Part shown: positions 15,880-36,182 of the stretch, one piece after another
Position numbering within the stretch: position 1 is the first letter of the stretch
How the letters are laid out: the number at the start of each line of letters is the position of its first letter
From: Roseburia sp.
GTDB taxonomy: Bacteria > Bacillota > Clostridia > Lachnospirales > Lachnospiraceae
NCBI GenBank assembly: GCA_026168605.1
Contig: JAPFDX010000035.1
Coordinates: 1 to 37,924, forward strand
DNA length: 37,924 nt
Direction: 5' to 3'
Made by a program: the position numbers and the translations under genes
Notes under the pieces: model-generated
Seen by the model: the letters and a program-made list of their open reading frames with translations, nothing else
Database searches by the model: none
Told to the model about the DNA's origin: nothing

Positions 15880-17235
15880 TTAGTTCGGGTTGATCTTTTT
15901 CTTGATGGTATCGATCAGATTCTTCGTGGTGTTGTCCGATTCGTATTCATCGGAAATCTTCTGTACACCGTGAATGATCGTCGAGTGGTCGCGTCCGCCA
16001 AGAAGCGCTCCGATGGCGTCAAGCGGCGTATCCGTCATATTCTTGCACAGATACATGGCGATTTGCCGTGGTCTTGCGATGTCCTTGCTGCGGTTTTTGG
16101 AAATCATCTGGTTTAAGGAAATCTGGAAGTGCTCTGACACCACTTCTATAATAAGCTGCGGTGTGATTTCTTTTGGCTTGTCCGGTGTGATGATATTCTG
16201 AAGTTCCTTGATGGCAATATCCATCGTGATCTCCGTCTTTTCCAGATTGGAGTAAGCCAAAAGCTTGTTGAGCGCGCCTTCAAGCTCACGGATGTTGGAC
16301 TTGATGTTTGTCGCGATATAGTTGAGGATCTCATCGCTCAACACCATGTCATCCGCCTCGACCTTCTTGCGGAGGATCGCCATTCGCGTCTCGTAATCCG
16401 GCGTGCCGATATCTGCCATAAGTCCCCATTCAAAACGGGAACGGATGCGCTCTTCCAGTGTCTCCATCTCCTTCGGAGGTTTATCTGAGGTCAGGATGAT
16501 CTGCTTCCCGGCAGAATGTAAGGCATTGAAGGTGTGGAAAAATTCTTCCTGCGTACTTTCCTTTCCTATAATAAACTGTACGTCGTCGATCATAAACACA
16601 TCGATCGTCCGGTATTTCTCACGAAGCTTGTTCATCGCGGCGGCGTTACCGCTTCGGATGGATTCGATCACTTCGTTCGTAAATTCCTCCGAGGTGACGT
16701 AGATGATCTTTGCATCAGGATTCTTCTCTAAAACGAAATGACCGATGGAATGCATCAGATGGGTCTTGCCAAGTCCCGGACCTCCGTAGATGTAAAGCGG
16801 GTTGTACGCTTCGCCCGGCGACTCCGCCACTGCGAGGGATGCGGAATGTGCGAAACGGTTATTGCTTCCCACGACGAAGGTGTCAAATGTATAATTTGGA
16901 TTGAGGTTCGATCTGTCTGCTTTTTCAGAAAAAACGGTTTTCTTCGCTTTTGACTGACCTTTGTGCATACTGCCCGCCTGCTCCGGCAGGATAAATTTGA
17001 TCTCGTATTCCGTGCCTGTGATCTCGCCGATCGCTACCTTTAATGGAAGGTAATACTTCTTGGAGATATAGCTTAAGGTCATCTGCTCCGATGGAACAAG
17101 GATATATAGAGTGTTATTTTCGATCCCGTATACTTCAAGGGGACGGATCCATGTATCAAAGGAAATATCGCTGATGTCATGTTCGGTTTTGACCGTCATC
17201 AATATCTCGTCCCATTTTTCTAAAATTAAATCCAT
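15880..17235 (-). CDS. dnaA: Chromosomal replication initiator DnaA
   Basis: A 451-aa AAA+ initiator. Domain I is at residues 1-80 and is followed by a short linker. Domain III has Walker A GGPGLGKTH, Walker B VFMIDDVQF, sensor 1 ILTSDKPPKEM and the arginine-finger region RIRSRFEWG. Domain IV carries the DnaA signature GGRDHSTIIHGV, which reads DnaA boxes. The ATG is preceded by CGGAG at 7 nt. The gene faces away from oriC, which lies directly upstream, and its probable promoter overlaps a TTATC palindrome, suggesting autoregulation. Confidence 0.98.
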   Translation of the reverse strand: MDLILEKWDEILMTVKTEHDISDISFDTWIRPLEVYGIENNTLYILVPSEQMTLSYISKKYYLPLKVAIGEITGTEYEIKFILPEQAGSMHKGQSKAKKTVFSEKADRSNLNPNYTFDTFVVGSNNRFAHSASLAVAESPGEAYNPLYIYGGPGLGKTHLMHSIGHFVLEKNPDAKIIYVTSEEFTNEVIESIRSGNAAAMNKLREKYRTIDVFMIDDVQFIIGKESTQEEFFHTFNALHSAGKQIILTSDKPPKEMETLEERIRSRFEWGLMADIGTPDYETRMAILRKKVEADDMVLSDEILNYIATNIKSNIRELEGALNKLLAYSNLEKTEITMDIAIKELQNIITPDKPKEITPQLIIEVVSEHFQISLNQMISKNRSKDIARPRQIAMYLCKNMTDTPLDAIGALLGGRDHSTIIHGVQKISDEYESDNTTKNLIDTIKKKINPN

Positions 17236-24569: not shown

Positions 24570-24597
24570 AATTTTTGGATTGTGGAGATTATCTGGC

Positions 24598-25170
24598 ATG
24601 AAACATAAGGGAACCGTTACGATCGAGACAGAGAGGATGATATTGAGGAGGTTTTTATCGGAGGATGTGGATGCAGCATTTCGTAATTGGACGAGTGATG
24701 AAAAGGTGACAGAATTTCTGCGTTGGCAGACACACCGGGATATTACAGTGACAGAACGTGTCATCAAGGACTGGATGGATCACTATCAAAATCCGGATTA
24801 TTATCAGTGGGCGATTGTACCGAAAAGTATCGATGAGCCGATCGGTACGATTTCGGTGACGGATCTGGATGAACGAACGGGAAAAGTCCACATCGGATAC
24901 TGTATCGGAAGTAAGTGGTGGCATTCCGGTTTTACAAGTGAGGCATTTTCCGCAATCATTTCTTTCTTCTTTGAGGAGGTCGGAACGGGGAGGATTGAAT
25001 CCATGCACGACCCCGAAAATCCGAACTCCGGCAGAGTGATGAAAAAGTGCGGTTTAATCTATGAAGGTACATTGAGAAAATCAGACTGGAGTAATAGGGG
25101 AATTGTGGATGCGTGTATGTATGGTATGCTTGCGTCTGATTATTTTAAAAATAAAGAGGCAGATTTTTAA
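24598..25170 (+). CDS. GNAT family N-acetyltransferase (RimJ/RimL-like)
   Basis: A 190-aa acetyl-CoA-dependent acetyltransferase. The start ETERMILRRFLSEDVDAAF and NWTSDEKVTEFLRW are typical of RimJ/RimL-type GNATs. The acetyl-CoA loop region is IGYCIGSKWWHSGFTSEAF, and NPNSGRVMKKCGLIYEGTLR matches the usual C-terminal motif. The ATG is 10 nt after GGAG; a longer reading would overlap rsmG. It lies 28 nt after rsmG and is probably cotranscribed. The acceptor (protein N-terminus or small molecule) is unknown. Confidence 0.88.
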   Translation: MKHKGTVTIETERMILRRFLSEDVDAAFRNWTSDEKVTEFLRWQTHRDITVTERVIKDWMDHYQNPDYYQWAIVPKSIDEPIGTISVTDLDERTGKVHIGYCIGSKWWHSGFTSEAFSAIISFFFEEVGTGRIESMHDPENPNSGRVMKKCGLIYEGTLRKSDWSNRGIVDACMYGMLASDYFKNKEADF

Positions 25171-25200
25171 ATCGTTGAAAATCTATTTGAATCAGAATAT

Positions 25201-25253
25201 AAAATAGGCTGAATATATGGCATATGGAAAATGTCATGTATTCAGCCTATTTT
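25201..25253. terminator. Terminator after the GNAT gene
   Basis: A perfect 15-bp stem (25201-25215 with 25239-25253) built on AATAGGCTGAATA and its complement closes a 23-nt loop that itself can pair further. The stem ends in TTTT on the plus strand and AAAA opposite, so it could act both ways. It separates the rsmG operon from the GntR operon. Confidence 0.85.
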
Positions 25254-25294
25254 GTTGACTTGAGAAACCAACCAAAATTTCTTATAAAAAACGA

Positions 25295-25323
25295 TTGACA
25301 AAATGTATATTATATCATATATT
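25295..25323 (+). promoter_or_regulatory. Promoter of the GntR-ABC operon
   Basis: TTGACA (25295-25300) and TATATT (25318-25323) are separated by 17 bp. The palindromic operator begins 12 bp downstream, so it covers the likely transcription start. Confidence 0.75.
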
Positions 25324-25335
25324 GAGTGTGTAATA

Positions 25336-25361
25336 TAGTTAGTTACTTAAGTAACTAACTA
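25336..25361. promoter_or_regulatory. 26-bp perfect palindromic operator
   Basis: The sequence is a perfect inverted repeat centred between 25348 and 25349, with core GTTACTTAAGTAAC. Its position over the transcription start, just before a GntR-family gene, makes it the likely autoregulatory operator. YtrA-type GntR regulators typically repress their own ABC operon from such sites. Confidence 0.75.
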
Positions 25362-25390
25362 GCAAATGTAAAGAGGGAGGAGGGATTGGA

Positions 25391-25768
25391 TTGCACATTG
25401 ATCAAAATATGGAGAAGCCGATTTTTATTCAGATTGCGGAGCAGTTGGAGGATTCCATATTTACGGGGATATTTCCAGAGGAGACGAAGATACCTTCTAC
25501 AAATGAAATATCGGCGCTGTTAAACATCAATCCCCACACGGTGCTTAAGGGGATGAATATGCTGGTGGATGAAGAAATCATTTATAAAAAGAGGGGGCTT
25601 GGAATGTTCGTGAAGGAAGGAGCGGTTTTTAAAATCAGACAGAAACGGCAGGGGCAGTTCTATCATCAGTATGTGGAAGCGTTGATCGAGGAAGCGAGGA
25701 AGCTTGAGATGACGAAGGATGAGATTATAGCTTTGATCGAAAGGGGATTTAAATATGAGGGCGATTGA
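25391..25768 (+). CDS. GntR family (YtrA subfamily) transcriptional regulator
   Basis: A 125-aa regulator with a winged-helix DNA-binding domain: PIFIQIAEQLEDSIFTGIF, then IPSTNEISALLNINPHTVLKG as the helix-turn-helix, then GLGMFVKEGA. Only a short helical tail follows, as in YtrA-type members that dimerise through two C-terminal helices and lack a large ligand domain. The start is TTG, after a strong GGAGGAGGG stretch. Its end overlaps the ABC ATPase start by 14 bp. It probably represses the operon until a stress, often a cell-envelope antibiotic in this family, relieves it. Confidence 0.88.
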   Translation: MHIDQNMEKPIFIQIAEQLEDSIFTGIFPEETKIPSTNEISALLNINPHTVLKGMNMLVDEEIIYKKRGLGMFVKEGAVFKIRQKRQGQFYHQYVEALIEEARKLEMTKDEIIALIERGFKYEGD

Positions 25769-26615
25769 AATAAAGCAGGTGACGAAAAGGTATCAGGACG
25801 TTCTTGCGCTGGATGATATTTCTTTTTCGTTTGAATATGGAAAAATCTATGGATTTCTTGGGAGAAACGGTGCGGGGAAGTCGACCGTGATCAATATCAT
25901 AGCAAACCGCATTTTTGCAGATCAGGGTGAAATCTTTGTGGACGGTATGACCGCAAAAGAAAATATGGCGGTTCATGAGAAAATTTTTTGCATGAGTGAA
26001 GCGGATCTGTACAATACAAGTTTAAAAATCAAAGATCAGTTTCTCTGGATGAGCCGTTTTTATGATTGCTTTGATATGGAAAAGGCGCTGCAGATCGCAG
26101 ATCAGTTTAAGCTTCCACTTGAGAAAAGGTTTAAGGCGCTCTCGAAAGGGTATCAGTCTATTTTTAAGCTCACGGCAGCCTTATCCATCCGGACGCCGTA
26201 TGTGATTTTTGATGAACCGGTACTGGGGCTCGACGCCAATCACAGAGAATTGTTTTACAATCTGCTGCTGAAGGATTTTGAGAAGAATGAGCGGACGATC
26301 ATTCTGGCGACGCATCTGATCGAGGAGGTTGCAAATCTGATCGAGGAAGTGGTATTGATCGATCAGGGGCATATCATTCTTCAGGAGAGTGTGGAGACCT
26401 TACTTGAGACAAGTTACTGTGTTTCAGGAAGAGAGGATGAAGTGGACACGTACTGTGCAGGTAAAAATGTTATCGGAGTGGATACACTGGGCGGTTTGAA
26501 ACTCGCTTATATCATGGGAGAAATGGAGCAGCCATCTGCGGAGAGCCACTTACAGATTTCAGCGATGAATCTGCAAAAGCTGTTTGTGAAACTGACAGAG
26601 AGGGGAGAAAATTGA
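25755..26615 (+). CDS. ABC transporter ATP-binding protein
   Basis: A 286-aa ATPase subunit. Walker A is GRNGAGKST, Walker B is PYVIFDEPVLGLD and the H-loop is ILATHLIEEV. The signature motif reads LSKGYQ, where most relatives have LSGGQ; this variant is known among ATPases of this type. About 70 residues after the ATPase core form an accessory C-terminal domain. AAAGGGGA precedes the ATG by 7 nt. It works with the next gene as a YtrA-controlled efflux or envelope-defence system; the substrate is unknown. Confidence 0.9.
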   Translation: MRAIEIKQVTKRYQDVLALDDISFSFEYGKIYGFLGRNGAGKSTVINIIANRIFADQGEIFVDGMTAKENMAVHEKIFCMSEADLYNTSLKIKDQFLWMSRFYDCFDMEKALQIADQFKLPLEKRFKALSKGYQSIFKLTAALSIRTPYVIFDEPVLGLDANHRELFYNLLLKDFEKNERTIILATHLIEEVANLIEEVVLIDQGHIILQESVETLLETSYCVSGREDEVDTYCAGKNVIGVDTLGGLKLAYIMGEMEQPSAESHLQISAMNLQKLFVKLTERGEN

Positions 26616-26616
26616 T

Positions 26617-27336
26617 ATGAAAAAATTGGGAACAGTCATCCGGTATGAATGTATCACTTCATTTCCGTACATCTGGTATTTTTATGGGATTCAATTTATT
26701 ATTATTGCATTTATCTATGTTATGATGATGTTGTTGGCAGGAACAGAAAATGTGACAGTGAGCTGTTTTGAGTTTAATACGATTGTTTACGTCGGGATAT
26801 TGGGCATTCTGGGTTATAATGAAGATTTTAAGATGCTGATCCAGAATGGATTTATCAGAAAATACATTTTTGGAGCAACTGTCATCATGTTCTTTTTTAT
26901 CTCATCAGTTATGGCGTTTGTAGATACAATTTTGGGAAATATATTTCATTTCCTATTAAGACGCTATTATTCTCTTTATGGAGTAATTTATGGTTATGAA
27001 AATCCATTTTTCAACTGGGCGTGGCTGGTGTTACTTTATTTTATGATCTGCATGATCTTTTATTTTTTCATTCTGGTTATGAACAAGATTGGAAAAAGAG
27101 GTTTTCTTTTTCTGTCAATTTTGATTGCAGGAATGGTTACGGTAGGAGCATTTTTGATTCGATATGTGCTGGATGAAACAGTCATTGGCAAAATAAAAGA
27201 ATTTTTATTGAAGGCGATGGGGTTTGTGGAAGATGGAAGCGTGAATCATTTTCTGCCGCTTTTGACATGGTTTTGCATTGCGGCTCTGTTTGGAGCAGCG
27301 TCCTATGCAGTGATCCATCGGATTGAGTTGAAGTAA
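26617..27336 (+). CDS. ABC transporter permease subunit
   Basis: This 239-aa integral membrane protein has about six hydrophobic segments: IWYFYGIQFIIIAFIYVMMM, a second near IVYVGILGIL, VIMFFFISSVMAFV, WLVLLYFMICMIFYFF, FLFLSILIAGMVTVGAFLI and FCIAALFGAASYAVI. It starts one base after the ATPase stop, with GGGGAG just upstream. The sequence does not match a permease family I can name; its partnership with the ATPase gives the role. Confidence 0.82.
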   Translation: MKKLGTVIRYECITSFPYIWYFYGIQFIIIAFIYVMMMLLAGTENVTVSCFEFNTIVYVGILGILGYNEDFKMLIQNGFIRKYIFGATVIMFFFISSVMAFVDTILGNIFHFLLRRYYSLYGVIYGYENPFFNWAWLVLLYFMICMIFYFFILVMNKIGKRGFLFLSILIAGMVTVGAFLIRYVLDETVIGKIKEFLLKAMGFVEDGSVNHFLPLLTWFCIAALFGAASYAVIHRIELK

Positions 27337-27395
27337 AGGGGGGATGTTTGCATAAAGTTTTGATTGGGTGCATAGAATTATCATGGAAAGTTCTA

Positions 27396-27424
27396 TTGAC
27401 TTTCTCATTTGTGCCTGCTAAGAT
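27396..27424 (+). promoter_or_regulatory. Promoter of the type III toxin-antitoxin locus
   Basis: TTGACT (27396-27401) and TAAGAT (27419-27424) are separated by 17 bp. The predicted start of transcription, near 27431, falls a few bases before the first RNA repeat. Confidence 0.8.
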
Positions 27425-27436
27425 ATAGGTACAAAA

Positions 27437-27532
27437 AAGTTTACCACTGACCGATATGTGGTATATAAATGGTCGGGTTGTAAGTTTACCGCTGACCAAT
27501 ATGCGGTATATAAATGGTTGGGTTGTAAGTTT
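27437..27532 (+). ncRNA. Type III antitoxin RNA, two 45-nt pseudoknot repeats (CptI/ToxI-like)
   Basis: Two tandem 45-nt units (27437-27481 and 27482-27526) and a 6-nt partial third (AAGTTT) lie between a promoter and a terminator, directly upstream of the toxin gene. In each unit ACCAC or ACCGC pairs with GTGGT or GCGGT (stem 1), and CCGA or CCAA pairs with downstream TCGG or TTGG (stem 2), in the a-b-a'-b' order of an H-type pseudoknot. The units differ by an A-T to G-C swap in stem 1 and a G-C to A-T swap in stem 2, both compensatory. In characterised type III systems the toxin cuts such transcripts into units that bind and inhibit it. Confidence 0.88.
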
Positions 27533-27563
27533 AGTCCTTCACCGTAAGGTGGGGGACTTTTTT
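27533..27563 (+). terminator. Terminator between antitoxin RNA and toxin gene
   Basis: AGTCCTTCACC-GTAA-GGTGGGGGACT forms an 11-bp stem with two G-U pairs and a GNRA-type loop, followed by TTTTTT. In known type III systems a leaky terminator in this position keeps antitoxin RNA in excess over toxin mRNA. Confidence 0.88.
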
Positions 27564-27622
27564 CACTTTATAGGAAACTTTGTTTTTGGTAAAGTAAAAA
27601 CTATGGGGGATTGCTTGGATAA

Positions 27623-28090
27623 ATGAAGAAAAAGGGTTTTTACATCATAAAAGATCAATTTTTTAAAGATATGTCTGATCCATATCTGAAAGGTAATAAA
27701 GAGGGGATGAGACCTCATTATTATTGTTTTGAGGATACATCGACGGGAATTTATTGGATGATACCACTCTCCAGCAGAATAGAGAAGTTCAGAAGGATAA
27801 TAGAAAAGAAAGAAAAATCGGGAAAACCTTGTGATCTTTTACATATTGTGAAACTGGATAATAACCGGGAAAGTGCATTTTTGATACAAGATATGTTTCC
27901 GGTCACAGAAGAGTATATAGAAAGAGAATATACGATAGCTGGAAATCATTTGATGTTGACAAGCGAGCATACGGCAAAGGTAATTGAACAAAAGGCGAGA
28001 AAAGTATTAGGAATGTTAAAGCGTGGTGTAAAATTTATGCCGACACAGCCAGATGTAATGTCTATACTGGAAAAATTGAAAAAAATTTAG
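27623..28090 (+). CDS. Type III toxin, ToxN/CptN-like endoribonuclease
   Basis: A 155-aa protein. The N-terminal FYIIKDQFFKDM, the RPHYYCF segment and the IYWMIPLSSRIEKF segment resemble ToxN/AbiQ-family endoribonucleases, where the same region reads ...APLTSPKK. By eye, Ser50, Ser51 and Arg30 fall near the catalytic positions of Pectobacterium ToxN (Thr52, Ser53, Lys33); this alignment is tentative. The upstream promoter, two 45-nt pseudoknot repeats and terminator make the assignment strong. The 45-nt repeat size and likely Lachnospiraceae host suggest the CptIN family. Such toxins cut mRNA when free, causing growth arrest, and several block phage by abortive infection; that role is untested here. 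Confidence 0.85.
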   Translation: MKKKGFYIIKDQFFKDMSDPYLKGNKEGMRPHYYCFEDTSTGIYWMIPLSSRIEKFRRIIEKKEKSGKPCDLLHIVKLDNNRESAFLIQDMFPVTEEYIEREYTIAGNHLMLTSEHTAKVIEQKARKVLGMLKRGVKFMPTQPDVMSILEKLKKI

Positions 28091-28114
28091 ATATAAAGTA
28101 GTTGATAAGTAAAA

Positions 28115-28150
28115 CCGCGGCTGTCGCATTTATGCACAGCCGCAGTTTTT
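28115..28150. terminator. Bidirectional terminator between toxin and convergent hydrolase-fold gene
   Basis: GCGGCTGT / ACAGCCGC (28117-28124 and 28136-28143) extended by GCAT/ATGC with one bulged C makes a long stem. AGTTTTTTT follows on the plus strand and GGTTTTAC on the minus strand. It serves both convergent genes. Confidence 0.88.
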
Positions 28151-28159
28151 TTAAATCTT

Positions 28160-35456: not shown

Positions 35457-35753
35457 TTATCGATTTCTCATATATTGTTTTAACTGGTCATAAAAATTTT
35501 CTCTGGTTCCAGCCATGATCACGACAATCACTTGATCTTCCACATATTCTACCGTATATGCCAGTTCATAATTTGTCTTGTTGTAGTAAATATCGTATCC
35601 GTACACACCGGACAAATCACCTGTCTTTGGTTCTCCAATCAGATAATTTTCACAAATTTTATCAACTGCTTCCCGGTATAATGCTTTCAGTTTTTTATCT
35701 TTCAATTTCTTTAGAAATTTTGCAGCGGGAGGAAGGAATCTTACTTCTGTCAT
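35457..35753 (-). CDS. RelE/ParE family type II toxin
   Basis: A 98-aa RelE-fold protein: VRFLPPAAKFLKKLKDKKLK at the start, GEPKTGDLSGVYGYDIYY in the middle, and YELAYTVEYVEDQVIVVIMAGTRENFY at the end, which is the usual final strand and helix. Such toxins cleave mRNA on the ribosome or, in ParE members, poison gyrase; the basic Lys-rich helix and this ending favour RelE. Its ATG overlaps the antitoxin stop (ATGA), so the pair is translationally coupled. Confidence 0.85.
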   Translation of the reverse strand: MTEVRFLPPAAKFLKKLKDKKLKALYREAVDKICENYLIGEPKTGDLSGVYGYDIYYNKTNYELAYTVEYVEDQVIVVIMAGTRENFYDQLKQYMRNR

Positions 35754-36130
35754 TCTTTTTCCTCCGTTGAAAAGATATCTTCATAGGTAGAATATTCTGA
35801 TTTTGAACGGGCAGCTTGTTCTGCTTCTACAAGTAATTTTTCTACTGCCGGACGAACTTCTCTCTGTGCTTTTTTGAACTGTGCAAGCAGATCATCGCCA
35901 CTGTAGCCTTGTGCGATCAGGTCTGCCAGTATCTGTTCTGCAAACTCTCCACCCGAGTTTGTTTTTGCCGGACGTATGATAAGTTCGTTTCCACGTACCA
36001 TACATTCTGCTTCTGTATCGAATCCCAACATAGAAAAAAATTTTTGTGGGATTGTAATCTGTCTTTTTGATGATATACTGACTTTTTTCATTTCAACGGG
36101 AATATTGCCTTTCATGATAGCTACTGACAT
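35750..36130 (-). CDS. AbrB/SpoVT-fold antitoxin
   Basis: A 126-aa protein whose first 55 residues form a swapped-hairpin AbrB DNA-binding domain (KVSISSKRQITIPQKFFSML, then ECMVRGNELIIRPA). The rest is helical and charged and should wrap the RelE-type toxin. The start is the ATG 9 nt after AAGGAG; a longer reading has no ribosome site. It precedes the toxin, as antitoxins usually do. AbrB-type domains more often partner MazF-like toxins, so this combination is less common. Confidence 0.85.
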   Translation of the reverse strand: MSVAIMKGNIPVEMKKVSISSKRQITIPQKFFSMLGFDTEAECMVRGNELIIRPAKTNSGGEFAEQILADLIAQGYSGDDLLAQFKKAQREVRPAVEKLLVEAEQAARSKSEYSTYEDIFSTEEKE

Positions 36131-36182
36131 ACGCTTCAGCTCCTTTCCTATTATATATAAGTTGATAATCATTTATTCAAAA

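Follow-up and report, generated by a model that had tools for sequence, protein, structure and literature searches.

The window, by which we mean the whole stretch of 37,924 nucleotides from a Roseburia sp. contig, contains at positions 27396-28090 what is, judging from its letters and those of its relatives, almost certainly a type III toxin-antitoxin module of the CptIN family, carried on the chromosome. The class of module is already known, and the locus is one more CptIN member, ordinary in kind. Every part of the layout proposed in the sequence-only reading of this DNA (promoter, two 45-nt repeats, GNRA-capped terminator, 155-aa open reading frame) was located in this interval, with the ~45-nt tandem repeats directly 5' of the toxin gene and the terminator between them. 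The partial third repeat, given there as 6 nt, has 7. The features are as follows.

24570-28159, no strand: genus-variable insertion between rsmG and the alpha/beta-hydrolase gene (genus gap comparison)
27369-28090, plus strand: stand-alone cptIN cassette (nucleotide similarity to relatives; stop codon at 28090)
27396-27424, plus strand: promoter, TTGACT, 17-nt spacer, extended -10 TAAGAT (scan; same place in relatives)
27408-27435, no strand: imperfect dyad TTTGTGCC..GGTACAAA straddling the -10 box (common axis in 58 distinct promoters including that of the window)
27437-27481, plus strand: CptI antitoxin repeat 1, S1 ACCAC/GTGGT, S2 CCGA/TCGG, U45 (direct-repeat search, locus comparison, covariation, PMC4627078)
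27482-27526, plus strand: CptI antitoxin repeat 2, S1 ACCGC/GCGGT, S2 CCAA/TTGG, U45 (direct-repeat search, locus comparison, covariation, PMC4627078)
27527-27533, plus strand: partial third repeat, AAGTTTA, 7 nt (sequence letters)
27533-27558, plus strand: intrinsic terminator with GTAA loop, between antitoxin and toxin (scan, folding)
27623-28090, plus strand: CptN toxin, 155 aa, putative endoribonuclease by homology (open reading frame, family models, 4RMO match)
27860-27862, plus strand: codon for toxin Asn80, the Asp81 position of E. rectale CptN (alignment; role of Asp81 from PMC4627078)

The toxin scores 184.1 bits against the NCBIfam CptIN model (cut-off 90, E 1.4e-54) and has one strong match among solved structures, the Eubacterium rectale CptN of 4RMO (residues 3-153, E 5.1e-76; 72.2% identity over 151 aligned residues). 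These two matches bear out the type III, CptIN-like assignment of the sequence-only reading, and the HMM comparison that it proposed came out on the same side: CptIN is over its cut-off, and the other families stay low (TenpIN 15.7 bits, under a cut-off of 90; Pfam ToxN PF13958 13.2 bits, cut-off 25, E 0.1; PADLOC AbiQ, E 0.0044). Systems such as ToxIN of Pectobacterium and Bacillus, and AbiQ, resemble CptIN in being RNA-inhibited endoribonucleases with pseudoknot repeats, according to PMC4627078 and PMC5086642, and the faint AbiQ and ToxN scores are what a shared fold would give. ToxIN differs in its 3:3 complexes, its 36-nt repeats in Pectobacterium and a toxin less than 15% identical to CptN (PMC4627078). 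Against membership of ToxIN or AbiQ stand the CptIN E-value and a locus, L097, which has a toxin 98% identical to the solved CptN and repeats that agree with repeat 1 of the window in 44 of 45 positions; we regard such membership as virtually impossible. Kept in the window toxin are L50, S51, S52, R53, I60, S85, L88, Y104, I106, V129, M132 and F139, and the RNA pocket has Leu in place of both Ile73 and Ile74.

The antitoxin repeats are adjacent, 45 nt each and 91% identical, and they are the sole direct-repeat family within 27340-27640. The E. rectale CptI RNA likewise has two 45-nt repeats, each folded as an H-type pseudoknot in which L1 is a single base (G13) and L2 is long (A27-G35) and kinked at U30; the cut falls after A45 (PMC4627078). 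The window locus is like this system (4RMO, PMC4627078) in gene order, in repeat number and length, in pseudoknot positions and in its toxin, and is unlike it in having repeats set apart from one another by two compensatory pairs, U45 for A45 and Asn at Asp81. If 27437 is taken as position 1, repeat 1 agrees with the crystal RNA numbering, including A7, A10, G13, G22-G24, A27, A29, the kink at U30, A31, A33, G35 and G44. The exceptions are U45 and U6, the latter present also in L097, where the paper names C6; this comparison was made via the bases named in the paper. The named L1 and L2 bases (G13, A27, A29, U30, A31, A33 and G35) occur in both repeats, as far as letters alone are compared. 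L097 belongs to the window's own genus, and both of its repeats are of the common repeat 1 form, from which repeat 1 of the window differs only at position 45. The genome that carries L097 (G008) has a second cptIN locus (L082), and the two repeats of L097 are identical to each other.

Comparison across relatives points to the published pairing. Over 39 distinct repeats, the window's included, 99.0% of cells show a formed pair at the ten pairs of that topology (7-11 with 22-26, 15-19 with 36-40), against 94.6% when shuffled; 0 of 500 shuffles reach this value, and sliding the pairing lowers it to 20-45%. Three stem pairs have changed on both sides, in 33 cells where 9.9 were expected; by a contrary measure, the further pair types number 8, below the shuffled mean of 9.0. 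We conclude that the repeats have the two predicted stems in H-type pseudoknot order, as expected of a CptIN antitoxin. Free-energy folds of the single repeats are unremarkable (z -0.50 and -0.21), the method being one that forms no pseudoknots. A covariance-model search of the repeat had also been proposed; with the Rfam models it matched no fitting family. At gathering score the window yielded one tRNA alone, with nothing at the repeats, and at E of at most 5 there were four matches on the antitoxin stretch, all far under the gathering scores of their own families.

The sequence-only reading took the co-varying stem changes between the two repeats as support for the pseudoknot from this one locus. 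The changes are real, with letters exactly as described: S1 goes from ACCAC/GTGGT to ACCGC/GCGGT and S2 from CCGA/TCGG to CCAA/TTGG. However, they are not independent evidence, because the same ordered difference in S1, with A10-U23 first and G10-C23 second, occurs in 59 of 67 two-repeat loci, the window included, so that the compensatory change was inherited. These loci come from a set of 73, window included, drawn from 118 distinct toxins (tblastn identity of 68% or more, a frame of 145 aa or more and one or more repeats, with each distinct toxin entered once); the relatives search kept the best 80 of 146. Outside the set fall L055, with U45 in repeat 1 and a frame of 122 aa, and L058, with one repeat and a frame of 63 aa.

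The S1 order is reversed in 0 of the 67 two-repeat loci, and in eight the two repeats have equal S1. The S2 of repeat 1 is G17-C38, and repeat 2 mostly has A17-U38 or G17-U38 (44 and 13 of the 59 ordered loci, with G17-C38 in the remaining two); 44 of the 67 match the window in S1 and S2 alike. On the toxin tree, in which many forks are weakly supported, the eight equal-repeat loci need eight separate changes and the ordered state needs 11, as if equal repeats had repeatedly been derived from the ordered state. Clustering on this tree was not clearly above that of shuffles, of which 500 of 500 were as low for the equal state and 32 of 500 for the ordered one. Repeat 1 is identical in 45 loci whose toxins have a mean identity of 84% and a lowest pair of 66%. 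With only 48% identity at the fourfold sites of these toxin genes, recent spread alone does not account for the unchanged RNA, which points to constraint.

It is conceivable, though we lean against it, that the repeats are two locked, non-interchangeable variants whose order has been kept across strong synonymous divergence, with a co-shift of A45 to U and Asp81 to Asn as a further step. Such variants would perhaps block pairing between repeats before the toxin cuts, or be two units with different jobs. In pseudoknot-free folds of the 59 ordered loci, the natural array is more weakly folded than repeat 1 doubled in all 59 and than repeat 2 doubled in 54. Almost any difference between the repeats would weaken cross-pairing, which makes this gain in insulation unspecific. 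Insulation as the cause of the order itself was rejected: the natural array is weaker than the swapped one in just 8 of 59 loci, and since the swapped order is no worse, insulation does not explain which repeat comes first. We found no description of a fixed order of repeat variants in the literature searched; it may already be in print. Neither the ordered variants nor the pair of U45 and Asn81 described below is established, and both merit follow-up. A fixed order would give a ready means to examine how tandem pseudoknots escape mutual pairing, and the specialist interest lies in this comparison across relatives, the locus alone adding one member to the family.

The shared repeat also leads to a prediction about specificity. 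An identical 45-nt unit in 45 loci, with toxins down to 66% identity, predicts a broad cross-rescuing group. The published CptIN systems of E. rectale, Coprococcus catus and Ruminococcus torques have toxins that are 35-44% identical and show no cross-rescue (PMC4627078). The C. catus and R. torques systems share family and layout with the window locus (PMC4627078, PMC6315513) and have 46-nt repeats in about 2.2 copies according to Table 3 of PMC6315513. The same table counts 18 cptIN loci in gut bacteria and gives, for the gut Clostridia rows consulted, repeats of 45-47 nt in about 2 copies. In our set, six of the 73 rows have a single repeat. Three of these (L039, L064 and L067) look truly single; two (L037 and L049) begin near a contig end, and one (L131) has masked sequence upstream. 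The single repeat of L039 resembles repeat 1, with a 3' end mostly typical of repeat 2, as if it were the product of recombination between repeats 1 and 2.

Upstream of the repeats, the promoter consists of TTGACT at 27396-27401, a 17-nt spacer and TAAGAT at 27419-27424 with TG ahead of the -10 box. The scan by itself is at chance level (4 promoters found, 3.2 expected). Across the cptIN set, 67 promoters (58 distinct; the window row was shifted by one base for register) have a TTGAC box where one would be expected. The arms of the dyad lie at 27408-27415 (TTTGTGCC) and 27428-27435 (GGTACAAA), and over the 58 distinct promoters Watson-Crick complementarity averages 75% in the best run of eight pairs; the median for all runs and axes tried is 32%. 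Covariation gives the dyad no support, since 0 of the 20 strongest mutual-information pairs in these promoters is a dyad pair. Since transcription probably starts downstream of the left arm, the dyad would act in DNA, and it could possibly be an operator for some regulator. A scan of the window's own genome for further copies, allowing at most 3 mismatches, gave 13 matches against 5 with a reversed control.

The terminator has 11 pairs, the GTAA loop and a following T-run, and folds at -18.4 kcal/mol (z -5.8; 0 of 200 shuffles equally stable). The start of repeat 1 lies 186 nt from the start of the toxin, the longest such distance among the rows compared and against 144-148 nt in most relatives, so that the translation signals of the window toxin differ from theirs. 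The leader from terminator to toxin start (27559-27622) exceeds that of most relatives by about 40 nt.

Both window repeats carry U at position 45, the place of the scissile A in the crystal structure. Among the 73 loci, U45 occupies all repeats in three (the window, L070 and L074) and one repeat alone in two (L031 and L040), and A45 is present throughout in 68. Further pattern searches of 392 and 397 genomes gave four extra U45 loci, whose toxin stretches equal those of L070, L074, L031 or L055, and nothing new. In E. rectale CptN, Asp81 contacts the scissile adenine and is among the residues that specify it (PMC4627078). The adenine pocket of the window toxin keeps Ser85 and Tyr104 and has Asn for Asp81; RNA position 45 is U in both repeats. 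Asn81 occurs in five of the 73 loci: two of the three with U45 in all repeats, three of the 68 with A45 in all, and neither of the two mixed loci. The first two classes differ at Fisher p 0.012, in a test picked after looking and with n=3; L070, which combines U45 with Asp, and the three loci that have Asn together with A45 argue against a link. The change from Asp to Asn turns a hydrogen-bond acceptor into a donor, which, we infer, would favour U over A. The pairing of U45 and Asn81 in the window is only a hint that the cut base and its reading residue have shifted together, and would be a tangible example of the co-evolution of toxin and RNA substrate that has been claimed in print. U45, Asn81 and the Leu residues at Ile73 and Ile74 leave some doubt whether the cut falls at the same bond.

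The same changes could also be read as decay, with a toxin that has drifted (Asn81 and the long leader), an RNA that has lost its cut site through the change of A45 to U, and a pair left unprocessed. Such a course would fit the rarity of U45 in both repeats and of Asn81 and the unmatched repeat-to-start distance. However, the open reading frame is not truncated, both stems are intact, and the toxin keeps most of its other residues at the active site and in contact with RNA. L031 and L040 each carry one U45 and one A45 repeat, which suggests that U45 may be tolerated. We therefore think decay improbable, and we suspect that the copy in the window is active.

The cassette as a whole recurs, by sequence comparison, alone in many Lachnospiraceae. 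Nucleotide similarity across 130 loci, which include duplicates and a few matched by the hydrolase gene alone, has a median start at 27371 and a median end at 28079. Within the genus, 16 of 62 genomes have a match to cptIN, 11 of them above the family cut-off; within the family the figures are 67 of 397 and 56. The window's own genome is counted in each case. Among the neighbours, the GNAT gene is matched at one other cptIN locus (35% identity) and the ABC gene at four (23-30%), and the GntR and membrane-protein genes have no match among the cptIN loci compared. With neighbours so scarcely matched elsewhere, the cassette seems to travel alone. Plasmid and phage records contained no cptIN match, and viral contigs gave one distant relative at 57% identity.

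The place of the module is near dnaA (15880-17235, about 10 kb away), beside which we take oriC to lie. The sequence-only reading considered this an unusual home for an accessory module; the position is as it described, but the site is one of variable insertion. A comparison of the same interval in related genomes, which it had proposed, shows a 3.6-kb insertion in the window (24570-28159) that holds the GNAT gene, the GntR-ABC-membrane protein set and cptIN. The gap between rsmG and the hydrolase gene, taken between match ends, is 3596 bp in the window and 13-669 bp in all 35 other measurable genomes of the genus, none of which has the insertion at this site. Both genes were on one contig in 36 of the 62 genomes; in G006 the two partial matches to the hydrolase gene were counted as one. 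In G028, a close relative, the two genes are on different contigs that break at the junction, where an ISL3-type transposase, a GNAT gene and tracts rich in GACCCTCAAA are found (L169 1290-2732, L170 1-438).

The module probably works much as the solved E. rectale system, from which cutting, inhibition, 2:2 assembly and plasmid stabilisation are carried over by analogy. One promoter would give an RNA of the two 45-nt repeats, and the terminator would let a minority of transcripts read through into the toxin gene and thus keep antitoxin RNA in excess. CptN would cut this RNA into 45-nt H-type pseudoknots and, as in E. rectale, be inhibited by pairing with two such pseudoknots in a ring of 2:2 composition. 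If the supply of antitoxin fell, through loss of the cassette or transcription shut-off, freed CptN would cut cellular RNA and growth would stop, which would make the cassette hard to lose. The present analysis itself establishes homology, gene order, the terminator, the covarying stems, the stand-alone cassette, its patchy spread and the insertion.

We consider self-retention of this kind a more likely advantage than defence against phages. In E. coli, the E. rectale system kept its plasmid in 100% of cells when the control was lost by about half, and it had no effect on more than 200 coliphages (PMC4627078). The hint of phage defence in the sequence-only reading thus does not carry over to CptIN. 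Some ToxIN and TenpIN systems do abort infection according to PMC5086642, and a mainly abortive-infection role for the window module would be in keeping with these. However, two tested CptIN systems gave no protection (PMC5086642, PMC4627078), the E. rectale test having been made in E. coli and not with phages of the native host. PADLOC, run on nine window proteins (seven neighbours and a second toxin-antitoxin-like pair), had matches in two alone, apparently to ATPase and response-regulator domains of a general kind. A mainly antiphage role is accordingly rather unlikely in our view, and retention of the cassette by its own toxin is preferred. The second pair, at 35457-36172 on the minus strand, consists of a 140-aa open reading frame with no Pfam or NCBIfam match and a ParE-like toxin (PF15781, E 2.1e-24).
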